Source of the DNA: Boothiomyces macroporosus
Lineage: Eukaryota; Chytridiomycota; Chytridiomycetes; Rhizophydiales; Terramycetaceae
Reading direction: 5' to 3'
DNA length: 64,000 bases
NCBI GenBank assembly: GCA_027604185.1
Contig: JADGKB010000030.1
Coordinates: 62,001-126,000, forward strand
Under the pieces are notes generated by a model. It had not been told where the DNA came from and searched no databases. It saw only the letters and a program-made list of their open reading frames with translations. How positions within the stretch are numbered: the stretch's first letter is position 1; each line of letters begins with the position of its first letter. A program made the translations under genes and the position numbers. Below, piece after piece: positions 1 through 64,000 of this stretch.

Positions 1-3000
1 TCTCATATTTCTCTAATATTTGCTGTGCCCTTCCTTTCCATCTAGCATTATCTTCGGTAAGATTGGAAATTTCAGCTTTCCTTACTTCTACCTCTCCTTC
101 TAGCTGGAAGATTTGCTCTAAACTTAAAGACAAAATACCTTTGAGAGGTGAGATTTGATCTTCTAGCGATTTGATCTTGACTTCTAAAGATTCCACTTTC
201 TTTCCTGAAGCTTCAAGCTGGTTGCGCAATGTAATATTTGATTCCCGCAACAAGTTACTCTGTTCAATTTTTTCCATAAGTTCCAAATGTTTTCTTTCAG
301 ATCCAAGACTTTCCTGGCTTCTTTTTCTTTCTTCTTCAAGAATTAATCTATTTTCATCCAATGATTTTTGCAAATGCTCAATTTGCAATCGAGATCTCTC
401 TGCTTCTTGTCTTGCAATTTGCAGCTTGGTATCAACAATCTCTTTTTCTCTTCTCAAATATTTGATAACTTCATTCAATTCAGCAAGATTTTCATTGTTT
501 CCTTCCGTTTGTTCACCAGTTGGAGCAGCCGACGTTCTAACTGAAGTTAATTGCTCGAATTGTGCATGTAACAAGTTGTTTTGATTATTTAAATCTATCA
601 CCCGGGTTTCCAGTTCAGAAATCTCTTTTTGTAATTTGTTCTTTGTCGAGTTGAATGTTTCAGTGAGCTGTGCCAAGTTCTCCTTTGCAACATTGCATTC
701 TGTAACTGCGACTTCTTTTTCTTGAGCCAAAGTTAAATTGGCTTGTTTCATTTGCGAAAGAGATTGAATAGTTGCAGAGTGGGCGACAATTTCGCGTTCG
801 TAATTATCTTGGGCATCCTTGGCAATTTTGGCCTGCCTTTCTACATCCGCTTTCATCTCATTGACATTAATAATGGCCTATGGTTAAAATCCTCTTACCG
901 TCTTTTCGCGTTCTTTCAGTGACAGTATTTGTTTATCGTAAACGGCTAAAGTGTTTTTATGTTCACTTTGCTCAAGATCCATTGCTTCTTGAGTTGAAGT
1001 AAGAGTTTCTCCCAACTTTTTCAACTGCTCAACCAAATCGGTACGTTCTTGTTCAAGTCTAGTTGTTTTGTTTGTCAATTCTGCAATCTTTTCTTCCATC
1101 TCAGATTTGTAAACATCAAAAGTGGTGTTCATTTCGTCTAGTCTTTCTTCACTAGCTTGGCTAATTTGCTTGAATGTTTCCGCCTGTTCAGTAACTAGAA
1201 CTAATTCGGCCTTCAGCTTTTCAACTTCAATTCTTGCTTTTGCCAATTCAGATTCCAAAGATCTAATTTGATCAATTTCGGTTGCTTCGGGACCCAGCTC
1301 TCCTGTATTTAATATCTTTTCCTCGTAAATACGAGCTTTGTTTTCTGCTTGCTCCAGTCTGATGGTTAACTCTGACAATCTTGCTGTTGCTGCTGCCTCT
1401 TTACTTTGAACCACTGACAATTCTCCCTTTGTTCGTTCAAAATTGCCGGTAAGTTTTTCAACTTTAAGTTGATATTCTCGCATTTCTGCATCCCTCTTTG
1501 AGCTTAGAGTTCGTTGATCATCCAGCAAATCATTGAGCTGTTTTCGAGAAAGTTGTAGCTCCCTTCCAAGTTGCTCGATCTGAGCTTCAAATTTCTTTAC
1601 GTTTTGCAGGTGGGCGTGATCTTTTTCCTCTAGGAGTGACTGAATTTCTCTTATCCTGTCGTTTGCGAGATTTCGCTCCTTGATTAGGTCTTGAACATCT
1701 TTTGACATACGAGTTTCACTCTGTTTCCAGACCTGCTTTTCTAATTTTAGGTTCTGATTCTCGAAAGTTGTAGTATCTAGAGTTTGGCGAGTGCTGGACA
1801 AAGTGTTGGATAATTCTTCAATTTTAAGATCTTGACGAGTTGACATGGTGTTGAGCACCGAGAATCGCTCCTTCAATTGTTCGAATTCCTTCTCTTTGGA
1901 TTGCAAATTATTGAGCAGCATTTCATGGCGATCTAGTGTAAGCAAAGCATATACCATTAAGATACGAGATCTGATTATTCAACTTTGCAACCTGGATTGA
2001 CAAATCCATTTTTTCGTTTTGAGTTTGCTCAAGTTGTGTTTTTAGAAGCTTGGTGTCGGTGCCACATTCTTTTCGGTATACATCAAATTCCCTTTGTAAT
2101 TCACGATAGTATGACTCGTAATCTGCACTGTTTGTCACTGAAGGAGGGTTTTCTTGGCCAGGCTCCGGTGATTGGTTTGTCGACCTATTTGGTGATCCTT
2201 TTCTAGTTTCAGCGATTCTCCTCCACTGGTCTCTTTCTCTTGCATAAGACTCTGAATTAAGTTGTTGTCTTCTCAACTCGTCTTGAAGTTTTTCTATAAG
2301 TGCAGCAGACTCGTTTAAAGCTTGAATCTTAGATTCTTCGGCCTCTTTGAGAGTTACTGATTCTTGCTGATCAAGTTTGGCAGACAAACTACGAATAGAC
2401 CGTAAGAGTTTTTGATTTTGAGCTTGTAGTTCTTGGATATTTTTAAATATGACCAAATGGTTTGAAATTATTGAATCGGCTTCTGTTTCTTCCATAGGTA
2501 TTGGAATAGGCGAGGTATCGTGCAACTGTCCTTTAAGAGATGCTTGCTCCCTCAACAATGCCTGAATTTGTCTTCCGCAGTCCATCAAATTTTTCTCATA
2601 CAGTTGATGCTCAGTCTCTTTTGCTTCCAATTCCGCCTTGAGCTTTTTCAATTGAGTGCTGTATTCCTCGTTCTGTCTAGAAACGTCACTTAAAGATTTG
2701 GCCAGGTATTCGTTTTGCTGCTTGGCTTTCTGGAAATCCTTATTGGTTTTTTCAATCATTGGTGCCTAGGAATTAACAAGGAAACACCTTTTGCTCAAAT
2801 TCTGAAACTATGTGATTTAAACATTCGTTCAACCGCGATACTTCGCTCTTTTCCTTGATTAGTTCTTGTTGAAGTTTTGTGTATTCAGAAAAAATTTGAG
2901 TGAATGACTTGCCAGTTTTCTGCAATCTACTAGCAACGGCAGCAGTTTGACTAAGTTGGCCAACTTGATCTGAAGTAGACTTTGCAGACAGTTCATTATT

Positions 3001-4504
3001 GATAGTTTGCAATTCTGATTCCAACTTTTCAATATCTAAAAGCAGCTTGTTTTTTTCCGCCTGCATTTCTTCAATTATTTCAGCCTTTTCCAACAGTCTG
3101 GTCTCTGATTCATTGCTTAATCTATTCAACTGCCCTTCTACATTGCGCAGAACTTCTTCTAGCTCCTCATTTTGAGTAGTAAGTTCTTGGCATTTCGATT
3201 GGTACAAATCTGCCAATTTTTTCTGGCTATTCATTTCGATTTTAAATTGGGATTCCAGTGTTATTTGATTATTTTCTAGTTCTCGAATACGTGCAAGCTT
3301 GCTTTCCAACTTTTCCTGCAATTCGTTATTTCGTTCAACCAAGTTTTGATTTCTAATTTGCAGAGATGCTTTTTCTTGATTGGAGACTTCCAGTTCTGCT
3401 TGTATAACAGAAAGTTGCTCACTTTTTTCTTTTCGGTACTGTTGCAGTTGCTCACCTTTACCTGCCAATTCCTGATTTAACCAATCAATAATTTTTTGCG
3501 ACTGCTCCACTTGCTGATTAGCATTTGACAATAGAGTCTTTAACTCTAGTTCACTAGCTTGTGTTTGTGCTAACAATTCCTTATCTTTACGAGATTCCAA
3601 CTTTTTTTCTTGAAGTTGTTTCTTGCTGTATTCAAGTTCCTCTACGCATAAGTTGTTCTATAACTGCATTTCAAATTCTGAAATATATATTCTTACCTGA
3701 TAGGTGCAAACACTCTTGCTGTTTTGCATTTAGAACAAATTCCAAATTCTGTTTTTCGTGATCTAAAGTTTCTTGGACAGACCTTGTTTTATGTGCATTC
3801 AAATCTTCGATGATCTTCAATTTTTCTTTTATGATAACATCTTTATCATCCTTTTCCTTTGTAATAGCTTGGGTTTTAGCCGATTGCTCTTCTAACTTTG
3901 AAGTAAGGGCGGAAATTTGTCCATACAGACCAGCAATCTGAGTCTCGTATTTCAGGGCTTCAGCTTCAAAAAGTTTACTTGCATTTAATCCTTTCTTTGG
4001 TGAAACTAGCATATCTTCCGCTAATTTCGCTTTATCAGGTGACACTTGGTTACTTTTGGTTGGAGATTCTGGTTTCCTTGGTATATCTGATGAAAATGAC
4101 TTTCCAGGTGATTTATTTCCATCATTTGAAACAGCGTGCTTGCCTTTAGTGGGAGAATTAGCTGACATGATTGCTCCTAAATCTTTTTTCGGTGTGGATT
4201 CATTTTGTAAGGTAGACAACTTTGATGGTGATGTTGCAACATTAGATTCTCCATGCTGTCTTGATTCGACTGATTTTGGTGTCATTGCCTTAACTGGGGT
4301 GCTTGGCTCCATAACAACCTTGCTTTGCGGCGTTCCAAACTCTTTCTTGTCCAAAGGTTTCTTTGGAGTTACCACGAAATTTTCGAATGGATCCTGCTCG
4401 TCTTCCAAACTAGTAGCTGGTACATTATCAGAGTTCATTTCAACATCCTCGTTAGGATTTTCAATGCCTGTAAGATTCTCTTCTTGGTCTGAACTTTTTT
4501 CCAT
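1..4504 (-). CDS. MLP1: Mlp1/TPR-type nuclear basket protein, 3' part outside window
   Basis: A long coiled-coil protein of the nuclear pore basket, a scaffold for mRNA quality control and export. About 1,460 residues are visible. Residues 1-150 are low-complexity with many (S/T)P sites; almost uninterrupted heptad coiled coil follows. The last visible part carries TPR/MLP signatures: VNEMKADVERQAKIAKDAQ, YLRREKEIVDTKLQIARQEA, LLRESNITLRNQLE and ARWKGRAQQILEKYE. Introns lie at 3642-3696 (55 nt, least certain), 2766-2787, 1933-1954 and 878-898. The ATG at 4504 is 55 bp from the divergent ATG at 4560. Family assignment rests on the middle-domain motifs; the rest is generic coiled coil. The C-terminal acidic tail is not in the window. 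Confidence 0.85.
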
Positions 4505-4559
4505 TTCACAGAGATTACCTTGTGATCTGAAAATTCAAGGAAAACAAACTTGCCAGAAA

Positions 4560-6299
4560 ATGACGATTAGAAAGAATAAAAAAATCCGTCTAGATCCTCT
4601 GCAGATAATCGAAAACATCGAAATGCAATATCTGTCTGTTCATAAGCGGAGTGATCCATTCGCCACACGCTTCTTCAAACCATCAATTCAAGTTATTAAT
4701 TTGGATAAACTTGAAGAGCCGATATCGCTGCCAGAGATTATTTGCATTCCAAAGCTGTCTAGGAAACCTATTGTAAAGAAACCTGAAAGAAAATCCTTTG
4801 AAATTCATCAATTTGTACCATACAAGTCATCAAGCATCCAGTTTCAAAAAATGGAGATACCGATAGACTTGAATATCCAAGAAAATAGACTAATCTCTAT
4901 AGGAAATTTGCCAGATGAAACTGTTTCCCTGCTGCATTATCCAATACCTTTTAAACCAGATTTTAGGGAGCTTGACAGGTGCTACGTTGAACATCCAAAC
5001 AACTTGGAGGATAAATTACAACTGATACTTGATCAACAAAATTCTTATTTAGAACTACCAATTGAAATTTCAATTAATTCAGAGCAGACAATTGAATCGC
5101 CACAGTTAAAGCCGTTAACCAATCCCCAATTACCTGGTTTGACTAATTCCAATCCATTGAAAGAAATATCAGTGATATCTGCAAACTCGGCCCATATACC
5201 TTTGAATACTGAAAAGATACAAAGGATTGATTTGCACAAGTTTGAAATGGACTTTATGGAATCGGGTGAGTGTAGTATTGGAAATCCTGGTACGTTCAAC
5301 TTTTCAAAGTTTAAAAAGAATTACGAAATGATGGACACTGGCCTTTTTCCACATTCGAGTTATCTATCGTGGAACTTGAATAACTGTTTCAACATCATGA
5401 TGAAATTGGCTAATGAACTTCAAAATCTTTACAAACCCAAACTGCACTTGTTTGCTTTTCAAACAATTCCTATAGTTTCTTGTTTCGCTTTTGATACTGA
5501 ATTGGTAATCGAAGGTCATTCAAATACAGGCGAATCATCAAGTAATCTTATCAACGTCGAGAAATCTGTAGAAAATGCTGTATTTAAATACTTTTCATTG
5601 AGAGGAGAATCACTTACTCAAAGACGACCAACGACACCAGTTAGACAAAAATCAAAGAAATTGCCTAAACGCTCCAACTCTCCGAGGTATATCTATGCTG
5701 GGTGTCAAATCATTAAAGATTTTGGCGATTTGTTTGATTTCGCAAATATTATAGCCTTGGAAAGAGAATATGACAATATGATTGCACTTGATTCCAAAAG
5801 CTGTCTGATACTAATGAAACTATCTGATATATTCCGAGATGTACGACATCAACTATTGAAAGCAGCATCAAAGTTCAGTATTATTCATATATCACTAGAA
5901 TTTGATCCTGTGTTTCAAGACGGAGAGGTCAAAGGAATATACCCATTCACTTGCCCAAACAATGCTATGATTAATGAAACTAAAGCGTTTGTGTATGGCA
6001 TATTGGAACAAGAATTGGGGTGTTCATGCTATATCTGGCATTGTGTAGATAAAGTTCAAGTTGTAGATTTAATAACCAGTTTAGCTCATGATGTTCCACT
6101 TGAAAACGAAGAACCTATACCATTTCTTTTCTTGGTTGGATTTCCAGGGATGAATTCTCACCTAGCACAAATACTATTGAAAAACTATTCGCTTCGAGAT
6201 ATATGCAAAATGAGCCTTGCTAATTTAAAAGAAAAATTTCAAGTTTATAGTGATTCTAGACGACTGGTATTCAATATTAACTTAGGAATTATTTTATAA
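4560..6299 (+). CDS. XPF-like/HhH protein, ZIP2/SHOC1-like candidate
   Basis: A 579-residue intronless protein. The open frame extends upstream to 4056, but that part is antisense to MLP/TPR, so I start at MTIRKNKKIRL (4560). The N-terminal 350 residues are rich in Leu, Ile and Pro with no recognised domain. Residues ~375-510 (from YIYAGCQIIKDFG through ALEREYDNMIALDSKSCLILMK) resemble a degenerate XPF/ERCC4 nuclease fold lacking the ERKxxxD active site. Residues ~520-570 (FLFLVGFPGMNSHLAQILL, then SLRDICKMSLANLKEKF) look like a tandem helix-hairpin-helix. This order is that of Zip2/SHOC1, the meiotic crossover XPF-like subunit. An inactive XPF-family protein of another type is possible. Function is inferred from fold-level pattern only. 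Confidence 0.5.
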   Translation: MTIRKNKKIRLDPLQIIENIEMQYLSVHKRSDPFATRFFKPSIQVINLDKLEEPISLPEIICIPKLSRKPIVKKPERKSFEIHQFVPYKSSSIQFQKMEIPIDLNIQENRLISIGNLPDETVSLLHYPIPFKPDFRELDRCYVEHPNNLEDKLQLILDQQNSYLELPIEISINSEQTIESPQLKPLTNPQLPGLTNSNPLKEISVISANSAHIPLNTEKIQRIDLHKFEMDFMESGECSIGNPGTFNFSKFKKNYEMMDTGLFPHSSYLSWNLNNCFNIMMKLANELQNLYKPKLHLFAFQTIPIVSCFAFDTELVIEGHSNTGESSSNLINVEKSVENAVFKYFSLRGESLTQRRPTTPVRQKSKKLPKRSNSPRYIYAGCQIIKDFGDLFDFANIIALEREYDNMIALDSKSCLILMKLSDIFRDVRHQLLKAASKFSIIHISLEFDPVFQDGEVKGIYPFTCPNNAMINETKAFVYGILEQELGCSCYIWHCVDKVQVVDLITSLAHDVPLENEEPIPFLFLVGFPGMNSHLAQILLKNYSLRDICKMSLANLKEKFQVYSDSRRLVFNINLGIIL

Positions 6300-6395: not shown

Positions 6396-9300
6396 TTAAT
6401 CGATTTTATTTCTAAAAGTTGAAGGAGACCAACTGTGATTACATTCTGGAGATACAAAGTCGTATTGGCCAAAGTTCAAAATGTATCTAGACAAATCCCT
6501 AATGTAAGGAGTACAAAAAGTTGCATTTCTGGGAACAAATGGGCCTGGAATTAATAAAAAGTACCAAATCGTTTTCCATCAAACGTAAAGAAAACCGAAT
6601 CAATGGTGGAATCTATTCCTACGCCAATCGTTCGATGATCTAATGAAGTTTTTGCTTTGTAATATACATGAACCAGTGGAGACTCTGCGTCAGTCTCTAA
6701 TATCTTTTCCAGATCCTCTACCAAGAAATTGTCTGTGACTGCAACAGAGAGTTTTACCAAGTAAATAACTTGTATGTGTGGCAAATAAACCAAAGAAATA
6801 ATCTGTTTCGGGCTAGTGATATATCCGATATGTACACACCTAACATTAGCATTGGATACCTTTCATAATAAATCTTGCCAGTTTCAACCTCATAATACAT
6901 ACATATATCTAAATTTGCCGAGGTAGTAATTTGCAGTTTCCCTTTTCTTTTTGGGCTTTTCGGTATCTGATCAGTAATATTGCCTTCCATCTCAGCAGTA
7001 GACACCTCATCTGATTGAACTGCCTCGGTAGTTGTTGCAATATGAAGCTCTCTGTTTTCAAATAAATTTTCAGTCACATTATTCAAATCTTCTTTGGCTG
7101 TAAAAGTCGTTTCAGATTTGTCTTTCCCATCTATAAGCTCGACAATTCTCTTGAAATTCTCCTCTAAATTGGCAGAGCTTTGAAGCTGAGGAGATTCATT
7201 TGTTTGTTCAACTTCCAGTGCCGGAGCAGAATAAAATACCTCTGAATCAACATTACTAAGATCATTTGAGGTATTTAAAAACTCTGTAGAATGAAAGGTA
7301 TCAAGTTCTGGGACTGGAATAGGCAGGTATTCTGTTGGACAAAAGCTACATTAATAACTATTACATTAGTTTATCAAGTTCTCCTCCAAACAAAAAAGTG
7401 CCCCACTGCTCACCAGTCAAAGAAACAGCTGGATACCAAATTTCATTTGCGTTAATATTTTCAAAAGCGACGCCCAAATCCTTTCCATTTAGCATGTACG
7501 ATATTGTTCCATTATCAAAGTCGATCAAGCAAGTTACAACATCCCTAAATGACCACTCTTCGCCATATCCGTCACTATTCACATCTCTACCGTGCCATTT
7601 GCGAACTCTTGCTCCATCGAACGCATACGATAGCATATCATCTCCAACTCCCCATCCGCCATATTCTTTAGGGGTATATTCTGAACAAACCCATCCAATT
7701 TGTAAAATACCAGCACTCCCTAGCTGAAATTCGTAGCCCCATTTTCCAGCTTTAGAAACTCCGTATTTGGCAATTGCTGTTTCAAAAGTCCAAGTTCTAT
7801 TGAAACACTACATTAGTACTACTAGTACCAGTAAAGAATGCATTTCGATATCTGCAAACTGAGTTGAACGAGATTGATCTAGTGATACAAAAGTTGGGGT
7901 ATAATCAATCGCAGTGAAATCACAGCTTCTTGACACAAATTTTCTAAAGAATGCCCAATCAATTTCGTTATTCAACTTGGCAACAGCTCTCAGTACACAT
8001 GAAAAATTTGTGTCTGAATACAAAATTTCTTCCCTAAATATATCTAAGTTAGGTAAGGTATATACTGTATTGGACAAATTGTGGAAGCGCATAGGTGATC
8101 GACTTACTAATTTTGCTTCCATAGTCCGATAGTAATACAAATAAAATAGATAAAATACTTTCGTTTACAATAAACTCTCGGAATGATTCAAAGTTAGCAT
8201 TAGAGTACCGATATACAACAGATTGACAATACATTCTAGAGCTGCTTTTGGAATTTCCAATTTCAATTCATCAGAAACTTGCTGGTTAGATTGGGTTAGA
8301 ACTAGTGGAAATACTAGCGCGTTTAATAGAGATGTTCCAACATCATCCAAAATATCGCCGACATAGTCCGAAAATTTCTGATGATTTTCAGACTCTACTT
8401 GATCAAAAATGTTACTTTTCAATAAAATGGATAAGCATTCAATAGCTGTGAGCAATTTAGAGCAATTTGTTCGGAAAGAATTCTCTTGTGGGGATACTGG
8501 TGATTCTGGCAGTTCTTGGGCAGCGGTTCTAGTTGGACTAAATGAATAACTGTCATTAGACATCCTACTATTTGGGCGTCCATGCGTTCTACCTGATTCA
8601 TGGTCTTCCAAAATCGGAGACAGAGCTGTCTTTTTGGACTCGGAGCTGTTTATTGTATTCACTACCAAAGAAATATTGCTAAACATTTTGTAAATCAGTG
8701 GTCTGATGAGAGAAATGACAATTTCAAATCGAATAGCTTCGCCTAACGTCAAGATAAAGTACAATTATTGGCCAAACTTAGAATGGCTTTACTAGCCATT
8801 TGACGAATGCTATCTGCTTCATCCGCGAGAATAATGTCTATCAAAATTTGGACTCCATTTCGATCACAGATCTGGGTGGTTATATTTGTTGATATCGACG
8901 CAATGTTTACCAAAACAGTCACTGCAGTATTTTTAATATCAATATCGTCAAATTGGATGTATGATATCAACCTTTCTACCATTTTGCTACTCTCTAAGGA
9001 AGATATATTCAATGCTAACATTAATATCAAGTACGATCAGTGCACAGAACCCCAATAATCTCAATTACATATAAATGTATATGTAGCATTACAGAATCAT
9101 GGATATTCAGCATCGCAGATAATGCCCCAGATTCGAATAAACTCTTTTGGTCGGGCATTTGAAATGCCAACATATGTAACAAGCCCAAAGCCCAGTAAAT
9201 GGTTTGCTCTTCCTGCCCTTGTAATGTTTTCACAATTTTATCTATTAATTTCACTTTAAGAATTTCCTTGTAAAATAATTCTTGTTAACAACAAATTACT

Positions 9301-10425
9301 TTCAGATTCACACAAACATTTGAGCAATCGTAAAATAATCCTGGGCAAAATGGTATCTGAATTCTTGATTAATGGCGAAATGATCTTGATGAAGCCTCGA
9401 ATCGCACAAATCTCTTTTAATTTTACTTCTAGGATTAAAAAAGACTTGCTTCTTATAACATATTCGTGTAAAACAAAAATACTCCAGCTCGCCAGTTCGA
9501 CATCGCTGTTTCGCAGACACCCTGCTGCCAAAGAAATCAATTTCAAATCCGCAAGTTCCAGTAAAATCTGCTTCGACTCGTCTTCATCATCAATAGTAGA
9601 TAGTATACGAACAATAGCATGGAAACATAACTTTTGTACATTTGGATTTCCAAAATTCAATTTAACCATTTCCGTCAGTAAATTCATAATCTTTTTTGCA
9701 ATCAAGATTGCTGATACACTATCGGTTTGGGAAAATTGGTGAATTAAACTGGCATCAAGAGATATTACCTTATACTCCAGAATTTCAAGTCGCTGTATCG
9801 GTTTGGCTCATCCTGCAAGAATTTAATCAAACAATCCAGAACACCATAAGAGACAATCTTGGCTTTCCGTTTATCTCGTTTAAATTGAAAATACCATTGT
9901 CCAAAGTTAAATGATAAAGCGATGCTACAGCATATCGATGAATCTCGGGATCGCCATCCAACCTCAGTGATTTCACCAGAATTTTGGGCAGCTTTTTCCT
10001 TGTAAGAACACCCCTGTTTCGTTCTGATCCTACTAGTTGCTGTACTATTATCATTGCTTTCTTTCTCTTTACATTGTCTTCTGATTGACAACATTCCAGC
10101 AAGTATGGCAGGTGTTTCGAGGACATTGCACGATCAAACAGTATTTGCATTGCACTGAATTAACAAATATTACCTGAGTTAAAACATTTTACCTATTGCG
10201 TATACTCGTTACTTGGCAGTCGGTTAATTTCCTCAAATCGTCCAAACTAATATAATCCTCAGATTTCATTTTATTTTTTGCATCCGGTAGTTTCGGCAAT
10301 GGTATGCGGTTGACTTCCTGGATGTGATTGTACATTCGTATTCCTAGTAGTGCCGAGCATAATCCTAGAGAGAACGACAAGAGCATTTCCTCGTGTTGCA
10401 TCTTTGAAAAAAAATGGAGAAACAA
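6396..10425 (-). CDS. Armadillo-repeat protein with SPRY domain
   Basis: A predicted 1,247-residue protein. An N-terminal hydrophobic segment (MLLSFSLGLCSALLGIRMY) is followed by armadillo-like helical repeats to ~residue 750 (for example VERLISYIQFDDIDIKNTAVTVLVN, here cited in part, and KAILSLANN). A clear SPRY domain lies at ~800-930, with TWTFETAIAKYGV, GILQIGW, GVGDDMLSYAFDGARVRKWH, YMLNGKDLGVAFE. A second, weaker SPRY-like stretch near the C-terminus contains TIGVGIDSTIDSVFFTFDGK. ARM plus SPRY recalls RSPRY1-type proteins, but no RING finger is seen. Introns: 10155-10192 (twin), 9875-9894, 9749-9768, 9281-9299, 9015-9034, 8743-8762, 8103-8168, 7808-7828, 7346-7364, 6813-6835, 6545-6564. 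The 8103-8168 junction is uncertain; two genes are possible. An alternative start is at 10401. Confidence 0.7.
10155..10192 (-). other. Twin intron: two abutting 19-nt GT-AG units
   Basis: Between SIRN and SAMQILFDR of the ARM-repeat gene, the reading frame is restored only if 38 nt are removed. These 38 nt are two complete 19-nt intron-like units, 10192-10174 (gtaaaatgttttaactcag) and 10173-10155 (gtaatatttgttaattcag), with no exon base between them. Removing only the first leaves an in-frame TAA. Confidence 0.8.
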
Positions 10426-16649: not shown

Positions 16650-17039
16650 CTACAGCTTGGATAGTAGCGGAACTGTTGGGATTAATTGGGCGATTTCAAG
16701 TGAATCTTCCCTCAAATGAGCGATTTCTTTGTATTCTGCACTGCTTGACATTGTAACAAATGCTTCTTTGTTTGGGTATTCCACAATTAACATGCGATCC
16801 CAGAGATCAGTGCCAACCAATGGTCCCTCTTTCATAGGGATACCAACCCAAATAATCCTCCCGCCGACCTTTTGGACCAATTTACCCACCTTTTCCCCAT
16901 ACTTCTTGTAGGATTCTTCTCCTGTAACACCAGACACTGTTCGGTCTTTGAATTTCAATAGATTGACCTGATGTACAGTTCCTTTGTATGGACTAGCGAG
17001 GAATTTAAGGACCTGATCTCTAGTAGGAACAATTGCCAT
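16650..17039 (-). CDS. DUF1330-family small protein A
   Basis: A 129-residue intronless protein of the DUF1330 (dimeric alpha/beta-barrel, ferredoxin-like) type. Typical positions are HQVNLLKFKD, YKKYGEKVGKLVQKVGGRIIW, MLIVEYPNKEAFVTM and HLREDSLEIAQLIP. Biochemical function is not established for this family in fungi. It is the tandem copy of the gene at 17132-17527; both begin MA(I/F)VPT and share GTPMKEGPLVG-like and DLWDR/DIWDR blocks. No signal peptide is present, so it is probably cytosolic. The pair is an obvious local duplication. Confidence 0.85.
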   Translation of the reverse strand: MAIVPTRDQVLKFLASPYKGTVHQVNLLKFKDRTVSGVTGEESYKKYGEKVGKLVQKVGGRIIWVGIPMKEGPLVGTDLWDRMLIVEYPNKEAFVTMSSSAEYKEIAHLREDSLEIAQLIPTVPLLSKL

Positions 17040-17131
17040 CTGATGAAATAATGGGAAACTTGGTCATTCCGCAGTAGGCCGATACAGGAGATCATCGGAC
17101 CGTAAAACTATAAATCAACATAGCACTATAT

Positions 17132-27505: not shown

Positions 27506-28992
<1,487 letters not shown>

Positions 28993-54886: not shown

Positions 54887-56321
54887 TTAATGTACATGTT
54901 TGTTTGGGTTGTACCTTGAGCCTCCCCAATCTGGGATAGAAGTCCCATCAGAAGTTTCAGAGTTCCTTCTCACAGGGGTGTAGGCATCTCTAGGAGGGGA
55001 ATAGTTTCTGTGTGTATTTCCACTTGAATAGTTGGATTGTGAATATCCTTGAGGGTGGTAACCTCTTGCATACTGCTGTTGGTGCTGTTGGTGATATTGA
55101 TGGTTTGGAACAGGAGGATAGTTTCCATAGTTTCGATACCCTGTGGCTCCAGAATATTCGCTTCGCATTCCATAGTCTGACCCATAATCAGAGTATGCGT
55201 ATTCTGATGGCGGGCCTTTTTGAGGATAGACGGCTACTTGCCTTGGGGACACACTTTCAAGGTCGACATCTATAGACGGTAGCGTTGGTTGACTGCCAAG
55301 TGTTGCATCCGAACCTTTGACATTGATTTTTTCTCTTTCCTGCCGTCTAGCTTCTTGAACTCTCTTTCGGGATTTTCTTTTCAAAATTTCGTCAATTCTA
55401 TCATTAAGCAGAACTTACCTCTTGTCAATTTTGTGCACGCAATATTCCTTCAGGTTTCCTCTGATATTACACAGCAGTGGAATATAGACCAGGAAAGCAA
55501 CAAAGAGTGAGGCGGCTGAGCCCAGCCAAATGAGAACGTTAATCAATTGAATCGTGAAGAACACCTTGGTTTCAGTAGACGTGGTTCCAGCATAAATATT
55601 TTGAATAGTGTTGATCGGATTGTGCTTTTGGTCGTTAAATGCCTTGTTCCAGATTTCATACAACAAAATAGCAGTCAAAAACTGACGTGGAAGTTCCGCA
55701 AATACCAAACGCTTCCAGCCTATTCATTAGCAAACCAGTACCTCTAAATTTGAAAAACACCCAGAAAGCCAACACATCGATTGTTTTTCTAGAATTTTGA
55801 ATTTGGGTAAAGAAACAGTAGTGCGGATATGAACGAATTGTATAGTATCTATAAGCGATAACACAAGTAAATGCATAGGAAATGTCCCTCGATTTGATAA
55901 TGGTGATTGCCTTCTTCCATTCAAACGCCAAGAGCACAAAGGATAGAAGCAGGGATGCCAAGATAATCATAAACATTTGAGTAACACCAATTGCTGCAAT
56001 AACCGGATTACTTGATATAGCATTAGTGTCTGACTGATTGATGCTGTTCGCCAGTTGAAATGTTGCGTTCTATGTTAGTCCGATATTACTTTTCCCTGAA
56101 AGGCATCCGAAAGAGAGTTCTTGTTCGAAACCAGCAAAATGGTAATGGAAGCCATTTCAACCATGTAGACAAGGATTTCTAATTAGTCCAGCTGTACCTT
56201 TCAAGGTGGCAAAAAACACTGTAGAATAAGCTAATCGCCTGGCTAGCGATGGATCGGTGAAATCGTCTACATCAACAAAGTCAAATTTATGATCTGGAAT
56301 TTCTTCTCTCTTCCAGCTCAT
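54887..56321 (-). CDS. KCH1: Kch1-type fungal potassium channel/transporter
   Basis: A plasma-membrane protein needed for low-affinity K+ uptake and Ca2+ signalling responses in yeasts; 450 residues. Family signature: MSWKREEIPDHKFDFVDVDD, KSRDISYAFTCVIAYRYYTI, SYPHYCFFTQIQNSRKTIDV, FWVFFKFRGWKRLVFAELPR and QFLTAILLYE. Four hydrophobic segments are followed by a cytosolic tail rich in Tyr, Gly, Gln and Asn. Introns: 56179-56197, 56070-56089, 55720-55741, 55398-55418. The start at 56321 (MSWKREE) is fixed by homology; an upstream ATG at 56399 is probably not used. Confidence 0.93.
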
Positions 56322-56523: not shown

Positions 56524-57448
56524 ATGGCATCTCTAGAGTCAATGTAATGGATAGTTAAAAATAGACGCACTGCGCAAATAGAGTCTCTGAAACCATTTTC
56601 ACCGACGGAGCTGGGAAAGTCTTATTACCAAATAGTAGCCCACCTGCCATCACAAATTGTTCACATGTATATTCATTTACCACCGCAGTTTCCAGAAATG
56701 AAACCCTGGATAGAAATTAAACCGGCAGTGAATCACCCCTGGGTCAAGAATGGAGTCGTACAGAACGAGAGGATTTTAAATTGGAATGTACACTCCTCGC
56801 TGGGCAAAGTTGTTGAAGAAATCATTACAGAGTTTACAATCAACCCGCCTCAAAAACTGAAATTGCAGTACTGTTTACTAATATCAGACAGTCTTTTGAT
56901 AATATGCAAAAGGAAGAATTTCCAGAGTTGGATGGGAAAACGTAATTTTAAAATTAACTCAGTTCTGAAGAAATTGAAGAAATTCTGTTGGATGATAATG
57001 CTTTTGCGGATTATTTTTATACGCTGGATCAAGTAAAACCAATCAAACAAATGCAGGATGACCTACTTGTAAATAACGCCGAAATTGCCAGTACCTTTTG
57101 TTTTATCCTAGAATCTAACTTGAGCAGGAAGGATCAAATAGAGGATTTAAAGAAACGTATTCAGGCACTACAGAATATCAATGCTGAGCATAGGAAGCAG
57201 CTTGATCAGCTATTATACGAGCAGCAGCAGGAATTAACAGTAATCATTACTAAATATAGCGATTTGGCTCAGAGTACTTGACCGAACAGCTTAGACAGCT
57301 GGTAGCTACTAGCGACGACATGACTGAGCTTTCAGCTGCTTCGTTTTTGGAAGGGAAGCTGTCCGAAGACGAATTTATAAAAGCTTTTAAAGAATCTAGA
57401 AAACTATACCATCTAAGAAACGCGAAACTGGAAAATCTCACTAAATAA
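56524..57448 (+). CDS. VPS37: ESCRT-I subunit Vps37
   Basis: A 273-residue endosomal sorting factor. The N-terminal 110 residues look like a UEV domain (MYIHLPPQFPEMKPWIEIKP, NHPWVKNGVVQNERILNW, HSSLGKVVEEIITEFTINPP), as in VPS37A. The C-terminal Mod(r) helices follow (FPELDGKTSEEIEEILLDDN, QQQELTRFGSEYLTEQLRQL, AASFLEGKLSEDEFIKAFKE, SRKLYHLRNAKLENL). Introns: 56544-56564, 56868-56887, 56942-56962, 57091-57111 and 57240-57259. The fourth is 21 nt without an in-frame stop, so its retention would add seven residues. Confidence 0.92.
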
Positions 57449-57455
57449 ATTTCTA

Positions 57456-58425
57456 TTATCTACTTACTCTTGAGCTGCGAGTATTTGAAGATTTCGAGTG
57501 CACAGTAGCAGGTTTGTATGACCAACCTTCATTCCTGATGAACCCAATCATGTTAAGTATGCCACCAGAAGATAAACCAACTCCTGTAATGAAAATTACA
57601 TAGTCATTATAGTAATCAAAGATCCCTAGCAAAATGTATGGAATGCACAAAGTCCTAAGTCATAGATAATTACCATTGAATAAAGTAATTCATGATAAAA
57701 GTCAGTATTTTTCGAGCGGATCGTTTCAGCACTTCATCATTCCCACTATTGGGTTTCTGAGGCAGGCTCCCATCTTGCGAGTGAAAGGATTTGGAATGAA
57801 TAATGCTTTTTACAACCACCATATTCTTTTTCTTTGTTTTCTTTACTTTTTGTATTTCTAACAGTACCCTTGAGCCCAGTATTAATACTATTAAAAACAT
57901 GGTGGTGTCTACCACGAGTGATACAATTGAAACTGCTTTGTTTGGGCTGTACATGGCCTCATAGCACCAATACCAGCTTTGGCCGTTTGAAGAGAATGCG
58001 ATGCCTTCCATCATCAACGCAAATCCAAAAACAAACAGCATCAATTTCCAATCATGTTTTCCTAAATCCAATGGTCTTCGTAGGACAGTGCTGCAGTATA
58101 CAACGACTGAAATTGATGCCACTAGAATCATATTGGAAGCTGCTGAAAATCCAGCGGCAGCAGCAACAAGTTTACAAGAAAGTCCATCCCAGTCTTTCCG
58201 ATAGATTACATTATGTACATAATTGAACATGCATGAAATATACAAGAATATATCTGTAATTGCAATGTAGAAGGGGAATTTAAGTGTTATTGGTTTTGCT
58301 CGATCCTTTTTCCATTTGTAAAGTACACGATAAATCACATAGAATGAACCAAATAAGCTGAATTGCATCAGCGTTATGCCGACGCCATATATCAATGGTG
58401 CGGCATCCTCTGGAGGTAACTGCAT
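57456..58425 (-). CDS. Seven-TM cAMP-receptor-like GPCR, copy 1
   Basis: A 316-residue seven-transmembrane protein of the Dictyostelium cAR/fungal cAMP-receptor-like group. Spans include YGVGITLMQFSLFGSFYVIY, FPFYIAITDIFLYISCMF, AAAAGFSAASNMILVASISV, KLMLFVFGFALMMEGIAF, VSIVSLVVDTTMFLIVLIL and YVIFITGVGLSSGGILNMIG. Paired Cys (LSCKL; WYWCYE) can bridge the extracellular loops. The basic third loop (VKKTKKKN) would face a G protein. One intron (57655-57673) lies just before TM6. It is a tandem paralogue of the gene at 58647-59632. The ligand is unknown. Its stop lies 7 bp from the VPS37 stop. Confidence 0.85.
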
Positions 58426-58646
58426 ACTTGTTCTGCAAAGTATAAATGACGTCCAAGAACGCGTAATAATAGCAAATGGACTAGAAATGGAAAGAAAGCA
58501 GCCATAATATAATCGTCAACTATTATTGAACAATCTGAAAGACTGAAGGCATCGTAGTTACATGTTTGATTTATTTATGTATTCAAATATTATCCTCAAT
58601 GTAAAAGAATCGATATTGCCAACTGATAGAGTATCTATGTGCCAGA

Positions 58647-59632
58647 TTAGTCTTCTTGTAGTTTAGCAACACTGTGTATATTGTGGGATGTTGAACGAAC
58701 CTCTTCCTGTTTCTTGGAAGCAGGACGGTCATACAAACCTTCGTTTATAATAAAGCCAATCATATTCCATATTCCACCAGTGCTAAACCCCAAAACAGCG
58801 ACTAGTATGATATACTTGTGGTAATAATTAAAAATTCCACATATCACGTATGGCACTGCCAGAGACCTAGTGTTAATCGCATGTACCACTGCACAAAGTA
58901 ATTGTATATAAATATCAGGATCTTTCTTGCCGAGCGATCCAGAATTTCGTCTTGAAGCGGGTTGCCCCCTTTTTCTATACACTGGGTCGATTTGGAATGG
59001 AACAATTTGTTTGATTTCTTCTGCGATTTGGTTCTCCTGGACTTTACCTTTCGGATTTGGTAAAGTACTTTTAATCCACAAAATAGAATAACTCCAAACA
59101 GTGTGGTCTCCACAACCACTGAAATTATGGGTAGAGTCTTATCGGGGCTGTACATTGTTTCAAAACACCAGTACCAGCTTTGTCCATTTGACTTGTAAGC
59201 TATGCCCTCTAGTATCAAGGCTGTCGATGTAACAAACACCAAAAGTTTCCAATCATGGGCACCAAAATCAATAGGGTGCTTCAATATAGTGCTGCAATAT
59301 ACTTGTACCGAGATACTGGCTACTAATATACAATTTAATGCTGCTGCAAATCCGGCAGCTGCAGCAATGAATTTACACATTTCGCCATCCCAATCCGTAT
59401 CGTATAATACATTGTGAAGTTGATCAATCATACACGAAAAATACATTATAATATCTGTTATAGCGATATACAAGGGAAACCGAAGAGTAATGGGCTTAGT
59501 GCCTTCCTTTTTCCATCTGTAAAATACCCGAGATATGACAAAAATCGAGCCAAGAAGGCTAAGGTGTAAAGTAACAAAACTGATTCCATAGATCAAATCT
59601 TTATCTTGTATCGGCGGAATTGGTCTGCTCAT
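58647..59632 (-). CDS. Seven-TM cAMP-receptor-like GPCR, copy 2
   Basis: A 321-residue paralogue of the GPCR at 57456-58425, same strand, 222 bp away. Shared blocks include YGISFVTLHLSLLGSIFVIS, RWKKEGTKPITLRFPLYIAI, CKFIAAAAGFAAALNCILVA, GQSWYWCFETMYSPDKTL and RSARKILIFIYNYFVQW. The intron at 58867-58886 sits at the same place (after FVQW) as in copy 1, so duplication came after this intron was present. Third loop and C-terminal tail are diverged, which suggests different coupling or regulation. Confidence 0.85.
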
Positions 59633-59731: not shown

Positions 59732-60730
59732 TTAGGCTTGTGTAGCAGTGATTCCATTACATACTCCTGATGATTGTCCAACAGCAACTTCACATTTTTG
59801 CTCCTTTTGTCCCTTTGGAGTCGAAGCAATCAAGAAGCCCGCCTTGTTGTCAGTGGAGCAGAATTGGAGAGCACATCCTTTAATTCCTCCAACGGTAGCA
59901 CAGAAAGATCCAGTGGTGGATGAAACGGTTTTGGATTCACCTCCAGCAGAAAAAGTAAATTGAGTGGCGGTGGTGCTAGTGGTTTTTGGGCAAGTTCCAG
60001 TTTTTACACCTTTGGTGTTTTGACGTGCAACACCACCAAGATCTTTTCCTCCATTAACAACAGTAGCGCCAGTAGCCAATGTGGTAGCATTTCCAGCAGC
60101 AGCACCAGCATTAGCAGCAGCACCAGCATTTCCTGCTTTCTTTCCTTTCTTTTCCTTTTTACCCTTCTTCTTGTGCTTCTTGTTCTTTTTCTTGTTCTTC
60201 TTGTTCTTTTTCTTGTTTTTCTTTCCCTTCTTATTCTTCTTGTTTTTCTTTCCCTTTCCTTTGCCCTTGGCTTTACCAGCCTTGGCAGGAGCAGCTCCAT
60301 CTTGTTGAACAGCAGTGATTCCATTACATACACCAGATGATTGCCCGACAACTACTTCGCACTTTTGCTCCTTTTGCCCTTGTGGAGTTGCGGCGATCAA
60401 GAATCCACCTTTGCTGTCATTGGCACAGAACTGGAGTGCACAACCTCTGATCCCACCTACAGTTGCACAGAAAGATCCAGTGGTAGAAGACACAGTTTTA
60501 CTTTGACCGCCAGCGGAAAAAGTGAAAGATGTTGGAGTATTGACTCCAGATGGGCAAGTACCGGTAGTGACACCTTTGGTGTTGGATCTGGCATCTCCTC
60601 CAAGAGATTTCCCTCCATTTACGACCGTGGCACCAGTAGCCAATGTGGTAGCGTTTCCAGCAGCAGCGGTATCATTTCCAGCAGCGAGTACAGCAGAGAT
60701 AAGGGTAACTAACAATGTAGAGTATTGCAT
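59732..60730 (-). CDS. Secreted duplicated-domain protein with Lys-rich linker
   Basis: A 332-residue intronless protein. Signal peptide MQYSTLLVTLISAVLA. Two copies of a ~115-residue unit (residues ~23-140 and ~212-332) share TLATGATVVNGGK, SKTVSSTTGSFCATVGGI, GCALQFC, GQKEQKCEV and VGQSSGVCNGIT. Each unit has six Cys, suggesting three disulfides. Between them (residues ~150-199) is a stretch made almost only of Lys, Asn and Gly, plus Ala-rich flanks. I do not recognise the unit. A cell-wall or secreted cationic protein is a guess; dibasic linkers could be cut by Kex2-type proteases. An upstream in-frame extension to 60958 is rejected because it precedes the signal peptide. Confidence 0.85.
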   Translation of the reverse strand: MQYSTLLVTLISAVLAAGNDTAAAGNATTLATGATVVNGGKSLGGDARSNTKGVTTGTCPSGVNTPTSFTFSAGGQSKTVSSTTGSFCATVGGIRGCALQFCANDSKGGFLIAATPQGQKEQKCEVVVGQSSGVCNGITAVQQDGAAPAKAGKAKGKGKGKKNKKNKKGKKNKKKNKKNKKKNKKHKKKGKKEKKGKKAGNAGAAANAGAAAGNATTLATGATVVNGGKDLGGVARQNTKGVKTGTCPKTTSTTATQFTFSAGGESKTVSSTTGSFCATVGGIKGCALQFCSTDNKAGFLIASTPKGQKEQKCEVAVGQSSGVCNGITATQA

Positions 60731-61255
60731 GTTGATGTTGTGCAGAAAATTGTTTCGCGTTTTATAGTTGTTTGAAACAGAGAGCCTTTGGCTTTGACAG
60801 GACCGGGAACCGTCAGGAGTTTGGAGGGGCGATTGGGAAATCCAAAAATAAAATGAAGTCATGGAAAAGCCCGAAATTATTGATCCCCTCTGAAATTCCC
60901 TGCATCTAATGTCAACCAAATCGGGTTCTAAATAATTATACCCTTTTGGAATTAGCAAAGAATAAAGTACGGTTTTTGGTGCGGTAATTACAATAATGCA
61001 AACAAAACATTTAATGTAGCCATTACCTTTCCTTATCCAAGCAGCTCAAAGTTCCATCAAATTCAGAACAATCGCCCAGTATCAGCCCACTCGATTTCCA
61101 TCTACTTGTGATTCTGCGTTTGGAGCCAACTCCTACTCCAAAAGCATTGCCGTTTGAGAGCCAAATTAAATTCATTCAAGCAAACTCGATTCCATTGAGG
61201 CCCATTTGTAACTTTTATAAAACCTTTATCATTTGAACAGTTTTTATTTAACTCG
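60731..61255. other. Promoter of the secreted protein and PRS 3' flank
   Basis: A 525-bp stretch with no recognised gene. It contains the upstream region of the secreted repeat protein and the 3' end of PRS. A minus-strand frame at 61102-61341 overlaps the PRS end and is a shadow. Confidence 0.5.
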
Positions 61256-62299
61256 TTACAATGGGTGATGGAACAAGAAAGACATACTCTCACCATTGTG
61301 GGTTCTACGAATCGCTTCTGCGAGCAATCCAGAAATGTCAAGCTGAACCAATTTTGTAGACATTCTCTTCTTTTCAGGAGGTATTGGATAGGAATTGGTC
61401 ACGATGATTCCATTAATTGCTTCGCAATTTTCAATGACCTTTAACGCATTTCCTGACAGTATACCATGAACTGCAACAATGTAGACCTTTTCAGCAGAAC
61501 ATTTCTTGAGATGCTAACTTAAACAATATGCTACCTCACACGAATCAATAAAAGAATGAGTGCCATCTATAACGTCATCCAAAACGAGACATATCTTTTC
61601 ATTAACATCTCCGACCAAGGATAACTTTGTTTCATACTCTTCGGTAACATTATTACCTTCCCTAATATGATAACGTTCACGATGAATCAGAGCAAAATCA
61701 ATTTTCAAGATATCGGCTAATTGCGCAACACTAGATCAAACTATTGTTTACCGACGAGTACCACCTGCATTTTTAGACACCATAATGCACTTGTCTGATC
61801 GGAAATGATCTGAAATATACTTTGCCAGACTTGGTTGGGCAAGTAAATTGTCACAAGGCTTGTTAAAGAAACCTTGGGTGAGAGAGGAATGCAGTTCGAG
61901 TGTGATTATGTGATCTACTCCAGCAACACTGAGCATGTTTGCCACAAGTTTGGCAGAGATAGCCCCTCTCGCCTTCTTTTTCTTTGATTGTTTGTTGTAT
62001 GGGAAATATGGCAACCTAAAGTAAGCTAATACTCACACTGCAGTGATTCTACGAGCGGAAGCTGACCGACAAGAAGAAATCATAATCAAGAGTTCCATCA
62101 AGTGATCATTCATTGAATGCGATCCCGATTGAATCAAAAATACGTCTGCATCACGAACAGATACTCCTAGTTCAACACTTGTTTCAGCATTTGGAAATCG
62201 TTTCACTACTGCTGGAGATGGAGGGATACCTAGCCTGTCAAGAATCAGACCGGTCAACTCAGGATGGGACGATCCAGTAAATATTTTGATTCCTGGCAT
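61256..62299 (-). CDS. PRS: Ribose-phosphate pyrophosphokinase
   Basis: Makes PRPP from ribose 5-phosphate and ATP for nucleotide, His and Trp synthesis; 326 residues, the usual length. Motifs: IKIFTGSSHPELTGLILDRL, FPNAETSVELGVSVRDADVF, ASARRITAVLPYFPYNKQSK (across intron 1), KARGAISAKLVANMLSVAGV, DHIITLELHSSLTQGFF and the PRPP-binding LVLDDVIDGTHSFI. Introns: 62016-62036, 61731-61751, 61514-61534. The catalytic flexible loop and HS motif look complete. Yeasts have several PRS paralogues; which one this is cannot be decided. The longer frame upstream of MPGIKIF is unlikely. Confidence 0.93.
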
Positions 62300-62367: not shown

Positions 62368-63031
62368 TTATTCTAAAGAGTGAAGAATTTCCATTATGTC
62401 TTTGAAGGTAGTCCACCCGTGATATGGAATATTTTCTCTCTTGCAGTAGGTCTCTAAATCGTAGCCTTTGCGGGCGAAAATCAAGTGCGCTTCCCGAGCA
62501 GCTGGCATATCCGAAACCCCATCGCCAATGAATACGATTTTATGGCTGGTGCCAAGTTTCTTGTATTCTCTCAATCTGGTTCCTTTATCGTGTCCATAGT
62601 GTGAGTCATCAAGATAGATGATTTCCCAATGGCTAGGATGAATTTTCAGTCCGTTAGCAACCAATTCCAAATCATATTCTTTGAGCTCCCTTTTGAAAAA
62701 GTGCTCCAGCAATGGCACTAACCCAGACGACAGCACAGTCATTGGGTATTTCTTTTCCTGCACCCATTGGTAAAATTCCTTGAAGAATGGATCAAACTGA
62801 ATATCATCAACGATTTCTATCGCTTCTTCAAAGGTAGGGTAATCAACGGTGCTCCACATTTCTCTTACTGCATCCCTAAAACTCTTTGTTCCATTCAATA
62901 TCTCCATGTCCAGCGCTTTTCTTCTAGGCTTTCCCATCTTCAAGTCAATTAAGCGGATCCCAGTATCTTCAGTGGTAATGGTTCTTATTAGCTTATTATT
63001 ACCCATCAAAATCAGAAAATATTGCGTACAT
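62368..63031 (-). CDS. HAD-superfamily phosphatase (Pyp1/YNL010W-like)
   Basis: A 214-residue hydrolase. The nucleophile motif FSDFDGTIT (DxD with catalytic Asp) is rebuilt across a 19-nt intron (62984-63002) near the start. Motif II is TVLSSGL, motif III a Lys in KLGTSHKIV, motif IV FIGDGVSDMPAA. The central WEIIYLDDSHYGHDKGTRL block fits the fungal polyol/phospho-sugar phosphatase group related to YNL010W. The exact substrate cannot be read from the sequence. It is divergent from the BioF-like gene, with 143 bp between ATGs. Confidence 0.85.
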
Positions 63032-63174
63032 CAAGAAACAAAAAAAATAGCCTTTGATGTTCAAAAAGGAAGCGGCTATTAGTCATTCCGCAATCATCCC
63101 CTTAATTACCTCCACTGCGGGAGATGCAATTCAAATCCGTCCGTGGCGAATCACCCGACTTTACTTTTCATTAA

Positions 63175-64000
63175 ATGCCAGACAAACTATCAGAACAACT
63201 GGAGAGGATTCTAAACAACAGAAGGGAAAGACATACACTAAGAAAACTCAAAATCAATAATTTGGTTGACTTTAGTTCAAATGACTATTTAGGCTTGGCA
63301 CATTCTAAAGAGTTGAACCAAACCATCCAATCTCACTCTTTGAATGGGCTAGGCTCCACTGGTTCAAGGTTGTTATCTGGGCATTCACAAGAATCTGTGG
63401 AATTGGAACAATTTCTTGCAAAATTCCATAAAGCACCAGATGCATTGCTGTTCAATTCTGGATTTGATGCTAATTATGGTGTGTTTAGCTGTCTACCTCA
63501 GCCTGGAGATGCGATATTCTATGATGAACTTATCCATGCATCCGTTCATGCTGGAATGAGGGCTTCCCAGTCCAAAATCATCAAGCCATTCATCCACAAT
63601 AATATAGATAGCTTATTGGTGTTGATTAACAATTATAAGAATATTCATTCAGGAAATATATTTATTGCTGTAGAATCGCTTTACTCTATGGATGGGTGCT
63701 GGTCAAATTTGAAGGAAATAGTCGAGCTTGTTGAAAAGTTTGAGAATGCTTTTCTTATTATAGATGAAGTAATACCAAATTCATACTAGGCTCATTCTAC
63801 TGGAATCATTGGAGAAGAAGGTAGAGGACTGGCTTGCCATTTGAATGTAGAAAGTAAAATCCTTGTTCGTGTGCATACATTTGGAAAGGCAGTTGGCTGT
63901 CATGGAGGTAATACCCACTAATCCCAGCGGCTGTTCTTTGCAGCTCCCTTTTAAAACAGTACTTTATCAACTATTCCAAACCTGTCATTTTTTCAACTTT
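63175..64000 (+). CDS. 8-amino-7-oxononanoate synthase-like enzyme, 3' part outside window
   Basis: A PLP-dependent alpha-oxoamine synthase of the BioF type, which would join pimeloyl thioester and alanine in biotin synthesis. Visible: VDFSSNDYLGLAHSKELNQ, GLGSTGSRLLSGHSQESVEL, LLFNSGFDANYGVFSCL, DELIHASVHAGMRAS, IIDEAHSTGIIGEEGRGL (Asp and His of the PLP site, rebuilt across the intron at 63769-63789) and RVHTFGKAVGCHGG with the Schiff-base Lys. A second intron is at 63908-63927. The C-terminus, which could show a peroxisomal signal, is outside the window. 5-Aminolevulinate synthase and Lcb-type enzymes are less likely by the N-terminal motifs. Confidence 0.9.

Follow-up and report, generated by a model that had tools for sequence, protein, structure and literature searches.

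Introns and rebuilt genes in the window

The protein-coding genes in a 64,000-nt stretch of Boothiomyces macroporosus DNA (contig JADGKB010000030.1, positions 62,001 to 126,000; hereafter the window) are interrupted by GT...AG segments of about 20 nt, the removal of which rebuilds conserved proteins. A motif-aware decoder called 84 introns in 36 genes of the window (Table 1), and 80 of the 84 were 19-23 nt in length; the remaining four measured 55, 132, 165, and 215 nt. An earlier note, made from the DNA letters alone, had resolved about 90 junctions, nearly all of them short; the number called is slightly smaller, and the shortness was reproduced. The 165-nt call (8044-8208), an additional one in the gene at 6396-10150, is doubtful. 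At least the 215-nt call looks like a probable fusion of two adjacent genes by the decoder, as judged from the translation and the protein family.

The earlier note had also reported that removal of the segments restores conserved motifs, and this was borne out in several genes. In the cyclin-dependent-kinase-like gene, intron removal restored IIH/RDLK, ADF/GLAR, and VDL/WSVGC (the slash marks the junction), thereby rebuilding HRDLK, DFG, and DLWSVG, which we take to be invariant kinase motifs, and the product covered positions 2-263 of the 263 in the Pfam Pkinase profile. The spliced Xaa-Pro aminopeptidase was aligned over residues 16-602 with Xaa-Pro aminopeptidase 1 (3ctz_A, E 1.3e-178), and the match ran through the junctions AHQ/SEYIA, IA/WLFNLRG, and GVGSY/LNVHEGP. 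Similarly, residues 1-324 of the spliced ribose-phosphate pyrophosphokinase were aligned with ribose-phosphate pyrophosphokinase I (2h08_A, E 2.6e-95), gap-free at all three junctions; both reference structures are presumably human proteins. The overlapping open frames of the gene at 17999-20805 were joined, giving a single frame of 908 codons with the stop counted. The spliced product of the Mod(r)-domain gene matched Pfam Mod_r over residues 124-268 (E 3.8e-31). Altogether, Pfam domains were found on all six spliced products tested, five from window genes and one from the splicing factor Isy1.

A further comparison was provided by SEC18. The spliced product is 723 aa long, as is its best match, the protein of Terramyces sp. 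JEL0728, which is 93% identical and gap-free at the six junctions. When 120 relatives among the matches listed were compared, two junctions were gap-free in 119 and 118 rows, respectively; the other four coincided with insertion columns in the alignment and were gap-free in 0-2 rows each. Terramyces belongs to the Terramycetaceae, order Rhizophydiales, and we take Boothiomyces to belong beside it. The public Terramyces gene models evidently splice such introns, as SEC18 shows; therefore, the feature may already be implicit in annotation.

Table 1. Tiny introns called in the window. The first 12 rows give genes with their introns; the last two rows collect the 30 other introns called by the motif-aware decoder, by strand.
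Gene	Strand	Product	Introns	Intron length (nt)
6396-10150	-		6545-6564, 6840-6859, 7346-7364, 7808-7828, 8743-8762, 9015-9034, 9281-9299, 9749-9768, 9875-9894	19-21
12200-14504	+	presumably arginyl-tRNA-synthetase-like	12905-12927, 13333-13352, 13420-13440	20-23
17999-20805	+	presumably two-domain phosphofructokinase-like	18209-18229, 18864-18885, 19449-19468, 20200-20219	20-22
22820-24024	+	cyclin-dependent-kinase-like	23314-23334, 23398-23418, 23539-23558	20-21
25714-27448	-		25957-25976, 26210-26228, 26464-26485, 26717-26736, 27023-27044	19-22
29652-31636	-		31528-31548 (AGTAG acceptor)	21, as read here
43846-45066	+		44130-44150 (AGTAG acceptor)	21, as read here
48165-50100	+	Xaa-Pro aminopeptidase	48249-48269, 48532-48552, 48793-48814, 49090-49109, 49218-49236, 49707-49727	19-22
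51153-53450	-	SEC18/NSF	51834-51854, 52155-52174, 52478-52497, 52829-52850, 53203-53224, 53305-53325	20-22
54887-56321	-		55398-55418, 55720-55741, 56070-56089, 56179-56197	19-22
56524-57448	+	Mod(r)-domain protein	56544-56564, 56868-56887, 56942-56962, 57091-57111, 57240-57259	20-21
61256-62299	-	ribose-phosphate pyrophosphokinase	61514-61534, 61731-61751, 62016-62036	21
Others	+		6267-6285, 28230-28249, 28657-28677, 29517-29537, 32493-32512, 34310-34328, 34475-34494, 35696-35715, 37116-37136, 41421-41441, 41714-41733, 50349-50367, 54318-54337, 63769-63789	19-22
Others	-		878-898, 1933-1954, 2766-2787, 11048-11066, 11326-11345, 11467-11486, 15404-15424, 21201-21221, 30472-30491, 33469-33488, 40497-40515, 40600-40621, 40686-40705, 57655-57673, 58867-58886, 62984-63002	19-22

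Intron length and spacing across the sampled genome

The genome is a draft assembly of 15.2 Mb in 216 contigs. The window and 20 further stretches of 10 kb (contigs C1-C20) were sampled, giving 264 kb or 1.7% of the genome. A first decoder relied on the usage of codons and codon pairs, learned from long open frames, on start and stop codons, and on the intron end dinucleotides, and it weighted intron lengths of 8-250 nt equally (flat prior). Its first run yielded 325 introns, with 17, 52, 34, and 25 at 19, 20, 21, and 22 nt, respectively, and 0-6 at every other length. In a second run, a single retrained model with a stiffer intron cost was applied to GT-AG and to the 255 other dinucleotide pairs as controls. 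GT-AG gave 131 introns of 17-24 nt, and the control pairs gave a mean of 18.3, a median of 16, and a maximum of 52. The control runners-up were mostly pairs like TA-GG and GG-TA; we infer that some of them are GT-AG introns read about one base off register. The motif-aware decoder, in which 15% of the length prior was spread uniformly over 15-299 nt (searched to 290), called 363 GT-AG introns of 18-24 nt, compared with a mean of 36.7 and a maximum of 117 for the 255 control pairs. GT-AG ranked first of the 256 pairs in both decoders.

Among the 386 introns called by the motif-aware decoder, 49, 161, 89, 52, 10, and 2 were 19, 20, 21, 22, 23, and 24 nt long, one was 25 nt, and 22 were longer. 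Thus, 351 of the 386 fell within 19-22 nt and 364 within 19-25 nt. The mode was 20 nt; the earlier note had placed it at 20-21 nt, and 21 nt came second. The short norm in its range of 18-24 nt stood, and the lower bound did not: not one of the 386 was 18 nt long, the stiffer flat-prior run gave a single weak call of that length, and the bulk lay at 19-23 nt. Introns of 19-23 nt made up the majority of those called in each of the 21 stretches, at a density of approximately 1.9 per kb of coding sequence in the whole sample.

The peak was also recovered with no gene model at all. A strict motif (GTA...YTAAY and YAG at a fixed distance) was counted at lengths of 12-60 nt and compared with dinucleotide shuffles. 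At 19, 20, 21, and 22 nt, there were 37, 89, 42, and 14 matches, against 2.5, 1.3, 1.7, and 0.9 in the shuffles. The next-largest excess was 10 against 1.6, at 15 nt, and no other length came near the 19-22 nt peak. Of the 185 strict matches of 19-23 nt, 160 were called introns, 3 overlapped one, 5 lay uncalled in the sense direction of genes, 3 were antisense in genes, and 14 were outside genes. The feature is therefore real, far beyond chance, and present in every part of the genome sampled, and the claim of the earlier note that introns of about 20 nt, near the known lower limit, are the standard in this fungus is upheld by both decoders and by the motif count.

Recently mobile introns (introners) were considered as a source and ruled out, since the 363 intron sequences were all distinct, with no near-identical copies. 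If retained, 83 of the 91 introns with a length divisible by three would introduce an in-frame stop, although the decoder tends to miss stop-free introns of this kind. Phase 0 was found in 50 of these 91 and in 100 of the 272 others, a comparison to which the same decoder bias applies. All 151 genes clear of the piece ends were open after splicing, with no bad frame among them. The intact spliced frames reported earlier were thus found again; they are no independent evidence, because the decoder enforces openness.

It may be asked whether the 20-nt class, though real, is partial, with many introns of 50-250 nt underrated by the short-length prior. In the stiffer flat-prior run, 126 calls were 31-250 nt long, homologues on both sides back a 46-nt intron in Isy1, and the strict motif was often slightly above the shuffles at 28-60 nt (8 vs 1.0 at 53 nt; 7 vs 1.2 at 39 nt). 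However, the long flat-prior calls were thinly spread at 0-4 per length, as false calls would be, and the control pairs listed called similar totals (247-285, vs 277 for GT-AG). Moreover, a comparably high second peak did not appear in the strict-motif count at lengths up to 60 nt, and 363 of the 386 motif-aware calls fell within 18-24 nt despite the 15% uniform share. A large hidden class of long introns is thus very unlikely, and the calls above 24 nt are probably decoder artefacts for the most part.

The introns shared one internal order, in which a 5' site GTAA(.)T was followed by a branch motif YTAAY and then by TAG or CAG. In the flat-prior introns of 18-24 nt (n=127), GTAA was followed by a T-rich stretch, the branch read YTAAY, and T stood at position -3 in 75%. 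G at +5 was weak (19% of introns), despite the canonical 5' end of the U1 small nuclear RNA (snRNA). Distances were measured in introns of 17-25 nt whose branch motif was clear (122 flat-prior and 356 motif-aware introns; 124 of the 127 in an earlier flat-prior tally). Of the 356 motif-aware introns, 342 had the branch A at position 14-16, and in 320 it preceded the final G by 5 or 6 nt. The distance from 5' site to branch was uncorrelated with that from branch to 3' site (-0.05, n=356; -0.06, n=122), and the variance in length was approximately the sum of the two distance variances. Therefore, two separate distances, rather than total length, appear to be what is measured. The earlier note had proposed that the spliceosome treats the 5' site and the branch site nearly as a single unit; although only a few nt separate the two motifs, the lack of correlation does not favour the proposal.

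The same spacing bears on the two 18-nt introns cited in the earlier note (44130-44147, +; 31531-31548, -). Both end in an AGTAG tandem acceptor, and the use of the AG one step further gives 21-nt introns, whose branch A, at position 15 and 6 nt from the end, is placed as in other introns. An 18-nt intron would require a branch-to-end distance of 3, which was permitted in the flat-prior tally and seen in 0 of 124. Both readings keep the frame. The flat-prior decoder chose 21 nt at 31548; at 44130 it chose 42 nt (44130-44171), which speaks against the 21-nt reading there. From their spacing, both introns would be better read as 21 nt.

If the segments were assembly indels or parts of decaying pseudogenes, the removal of GT...AG would repair the frames by chance, a concern that the earlier note had raised itself with regard to indels. 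A draft assembly in this many contigs, with identical duplicated stretches in it, leaves some room for such errors. However, 5' and branch motifs followed by an AG, all with fixed spacing, would not be found in indels, nor would indels let GT-AG outscore all 255 other pairs. Furthermore, all 21 stretches show the pattern, as do Prp8, SEC18, and U2AF-large, among other genes, and the SEC18 protein of the closest relative matches the spliced product with no gaps at the junctions. Such an origin is therefore extremely improbable.

Splicing machinery and the altered Isy1

All eight proteins and three snRNAs sought were found in the genome, namely SF1, U2AF-large, Slu7, Prp18, Yju2, Cwc25, Isy1, and Prp8, together with U1, U2, and U6. 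Although this is not a full census, the 8/8 proteins and 3/3 snRNAs speak against a reduced spliceosome of the mikrocytid or microsporidian kind. The single U1 gene scored 68.8 bits against the Rfam threshold of 69.5 and has a canonical 5' end, beginning AUACUUACCUG. Two U2 genes were found, both with the branch-pairing segment GUAGUA intact. The single U6 gene (contig C59, L023:1501-1606) has an intact ACAGAGA box; compared with the Rfam model, it carries an additional U close to the internal stem, between AGCAUGGC and CCCUG. Among the proteins, U2AF-large (spliced model of 452 codons) scored 230.7 bits, short of the 310.3 set for its family, probably owing to the exon-by-exon reading of the search. 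The models of Slu7, Prp18, and Prp8 comprise 478, 297, and 2330 codons, including the stop, and Prp8 contains six introns of 19-22 nt. In their own models, all of the machinery proteins except Yju2 carry at least one intron of 19-24 nt. The N-terminal glycine plug of Cwc25, MGGGDLNLKKSWHP (GGG), is kept, and the N-terminus of Yju2 is conserved. The earlier note had suggested a search for changes in U2AF, SF1, Prp8, Prp18, Slu7, U2, and U6; genes for all of them were found (U2AF as the large subunit), with the U2 segment and the U6 box intact, and the departures seen were the one-base insertion in U6 and the N-terminus of Isy1, a factor not named there.

Next to the U6 gene lie two secreted-protein-like genes, nearly identical and in inverted orientation (L023:1-496, -, and 913-1425, +). 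In L021, a U2 gene has open frames beside it that we take to be transposase-like.

Ribosome bypassing or programmed frameshifting could in principle skip segments that the mRNA retains. However, the motifs are spliceosomal, as the branch motif YTAAY matches the organism's own U2 GUAGUA and the 5' motif matches its own U1. About 1.9 segments in every kb of coding sequence would need bypass, and the spliceosome genes are present, yet the sample holds almost no other introns as their substrate. Skipping by the ribosome is scarcely credible.

The Isy1 gene (contig C39, L036:1225-2104) encodes a protein from which MARN and the following conserved segment are absent and in which the N-terminus is extended; the best PDB alignment begins at residue 43. 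Its relatives were examined as the best 120 of 263, of which 20 were aligned, and the best match was Boothiomyces sp. JEL0838, at 96%. MARN or MARS stood near the start in 75 of the 120. Visual inspection of the other 45 showed that 36 start at an internal Met, four are near-canonical (QARS, MARD, MART, and QARN), three start deeper or are unlike, and two, Boothiomyces (P0121) and Globomyces (P0122), are of full length but altered. The Isy1 labelled Hompol1 (P0123), presumably from a Rhizophydiales chytrid, has a normal N-terminus. An upstream exon encoding MARN was sought in L036 and not found, the only same-strand match to ATGGC followed by Arg being downstream. The gene also contains the 46-nt intron, which has a perfect GTAAGT and a normally spaced branch site and through which the Boothiomyces and Globomyces proteins run gap-free; thus, the spliceosome is probably not restricted to tiny introns. 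Judged by its sequence, the Isy1 N-terminus would be the one clear protein departure among the machinery found, and an adaptive reading of it is possible.

Taken together, the 19-23-nt segments are very probably ordinary U2-type spliceosomal introns, compressed throughout the sampled genome to a floor that two distances would set. A complete major spliceosome would remove them by intron definition, and the floor would reflect two limits, approximately 14 nt from the 5' site to the branch A and approximately 5 nt from the branch A to the end. The latter would be too short to accommodate a polypyrimidine tract downstream of the branch. Small deletions may have shortened the introns until one of the two limits was met, and longer introns would still be spliced, as the 46-nt intron of Isy1 suggests.

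Several points weigh against this interpretation. The support for excision lies at the level of genomic sequence, and 23 of the 386 calls exceed 24 nt. Since the decoder is coding-based, it would overlook long introns in untranslated regions. The motif-aware spacing figures are influenced by the decoder's own priors; the flat-prior spacing (122 introns) is free of these and concordant. YTAAY use drops with length, from approximately 38 of 49 introns at 19 nt to approximately 32 of 64 at 22-24 nt, so the branch site may be not fully independent of length. The strict-motif excess at 15 nt is a further point, although 7 of the 10 matches lie inside longer called introns. Finally, the public Boothiomyces Isy1 model (P0121) lacks approximately 10 residues at a place that accommodates a 22-nt intron here, as though a longer one had been spliced out; at least one published model thus contradicts the present one.

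Whether the machinery has been remodelled for tiny lariats can be judged by comparison with Stentor coeruleus. Stentor introns are 15-16 nt long, and Slu7 and Prp18 are listed as not found there; Cwc25 is without its glycine plug, Isy1 has a non-conserved N-terminus, and it has been proposed that a clash with the tight lariat is thereby avoided (PMC9505925). As in Stentor, introns of nearly one size are the standard here and the Isy1 N-terminus, which extends to the active site in other eukaryotes, is not conserved, and its loss may likewise avoid a clash with a tight loop; Isy1 lacks MARN and the next conserved segment here, Boothiomyces agrees, and Globomyces is altered. Unlike in Stentor, the introns are longer (19-23 nt) with an obvious YTAAY, and Slu7, Prp18, and the Cwc25 GGG plug are kept. 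Moreover, a single protein in a single lineage can diverge by chance, and the Isy1 start model hangs on one atypical 22-nt intron, with a branch-to-end distance of 8. Remodelling of this kind is therefore doubtful.

A broader idea is put forward tentatively and would be unlikely as a whole. In the Terramycetaceae, perhaps with relatives, almost every intron of a presumably free-living fungus may have been pushed down to the shortest length that a spliceosome, complete in other respects, can mechanically handle, as measured by two independent rulers; the loss of the Isy1 N-terminus would be an adaptation to the tight lariat convergent with Stentor, and change in Cwc25, Slu7, and Prp18 would be unneeded at this length.

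Known systems and minor observations

Introns this short are the norm in heterotrich ciliates (15-16 nt), mikrocytids (16-17 nt), and a nucleomorph (18-21 nt) (PMC10245619). The nucleomorph of the chlorarachniophyte Bigelowiella natans, with more than 800 introns in approximately 300 genes (PMC10245619), has many introns in nearly the same narrow range; however, it is a relic endosymbiont nucleus, whereas the present genome is fungal and holds every splicing factor sought. For mikrocytids, 224 introns are predicted and the spliceosome comprises 17-19 proteins; the introns of Mikrocytos mackini are 16-17 nt long (PMC10245619). They resemble the present introns in being very short, narrow in range, and conserved in sequence, and differ in that approximately 1.9 introns per kb of coding sequence occur here with no sought factor missing, short of a full census. 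In Paramecium and Nyctotherus, ultra-short introns of approximately 25 nt are the only class (PMC5014332). Ultra-short introns are likewise nearly the sole class here, but they are shorter and show no visible deficit at 21 nt (see the counts at 19-22 nt above). The short (type B) introns of Trichomonas start from 23 nt, and of the 63 active introns in T. vaginalis, some belong to a long class (PMC12316389); that long class coexists there, whereas the short class is nearly everything here.

Among fungi, the shortest mean intron length named in excerpts from a study of 644 genomes, including Chytridiomycota, is 63 bp, in Cryptococcus (PMC8476143), and a Rhizophydium genome paper mentions introns once, in the methods (PMC13391722). 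Among the matches listed in the open-licence literature, none described a fungus in which 20-nt introns are standard; this is not proof of absence and agrees with the lack of precedent stated in the earlier note; such introns may be described in papers outside that literature.

How small an intron a complete spliceosome can handle is a question that the Stentor paper raises for vertebrates (PMC9505925); the extreme cases found in the literature come from a relic nucleus, parasites, and ciliates. If the sampled density holds, extrapolation from 386 introns per 264 kb to 15.2 Mb gives approximately 22,000 such introns genome-wide. A fungus with canonical pairing segments in U1, U2, and U6 and with Slu7, Prp18, SF1, and U2AF would be comparable with yeast biochemistry and structures, and would show which changes tiny introns require, perhaps that in the Isy1 N-terminus, and which they do not. 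Since its splicing set appears ordinary where tested, the organism could help to show the smallest intron that a normal spliceosome handles. In practice, a gene finder that imposes a lower limit on intron length will break up most of the genes in such genomes.

Some minor features were noted. Identical decoded genes and introns were found over the approximately 3 kb examined in two stretches (L032 on contig C49 and L033 on contig C100), and paired equal-score matches occurred to kinases within C10 and within C65 and to RNA-binding domains within C20; these may reflect recent duplication or unmerged haplotypes. In the window, a 51-nt unit is repeated twice in tandem, with one mismatch, between genes at 45501-45602. 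A tandem pair of related membrane-receptor-like genes occupies 57456-59632, each with one tiny intron near the 3' end. The intronless gene at 59732-60862 encodes a protein of two similar halves with a long lysine-rich KKNKKNKK linker between them, and a pair of similar short neighbouring genes at 16650-17527 (-) is also intronless.

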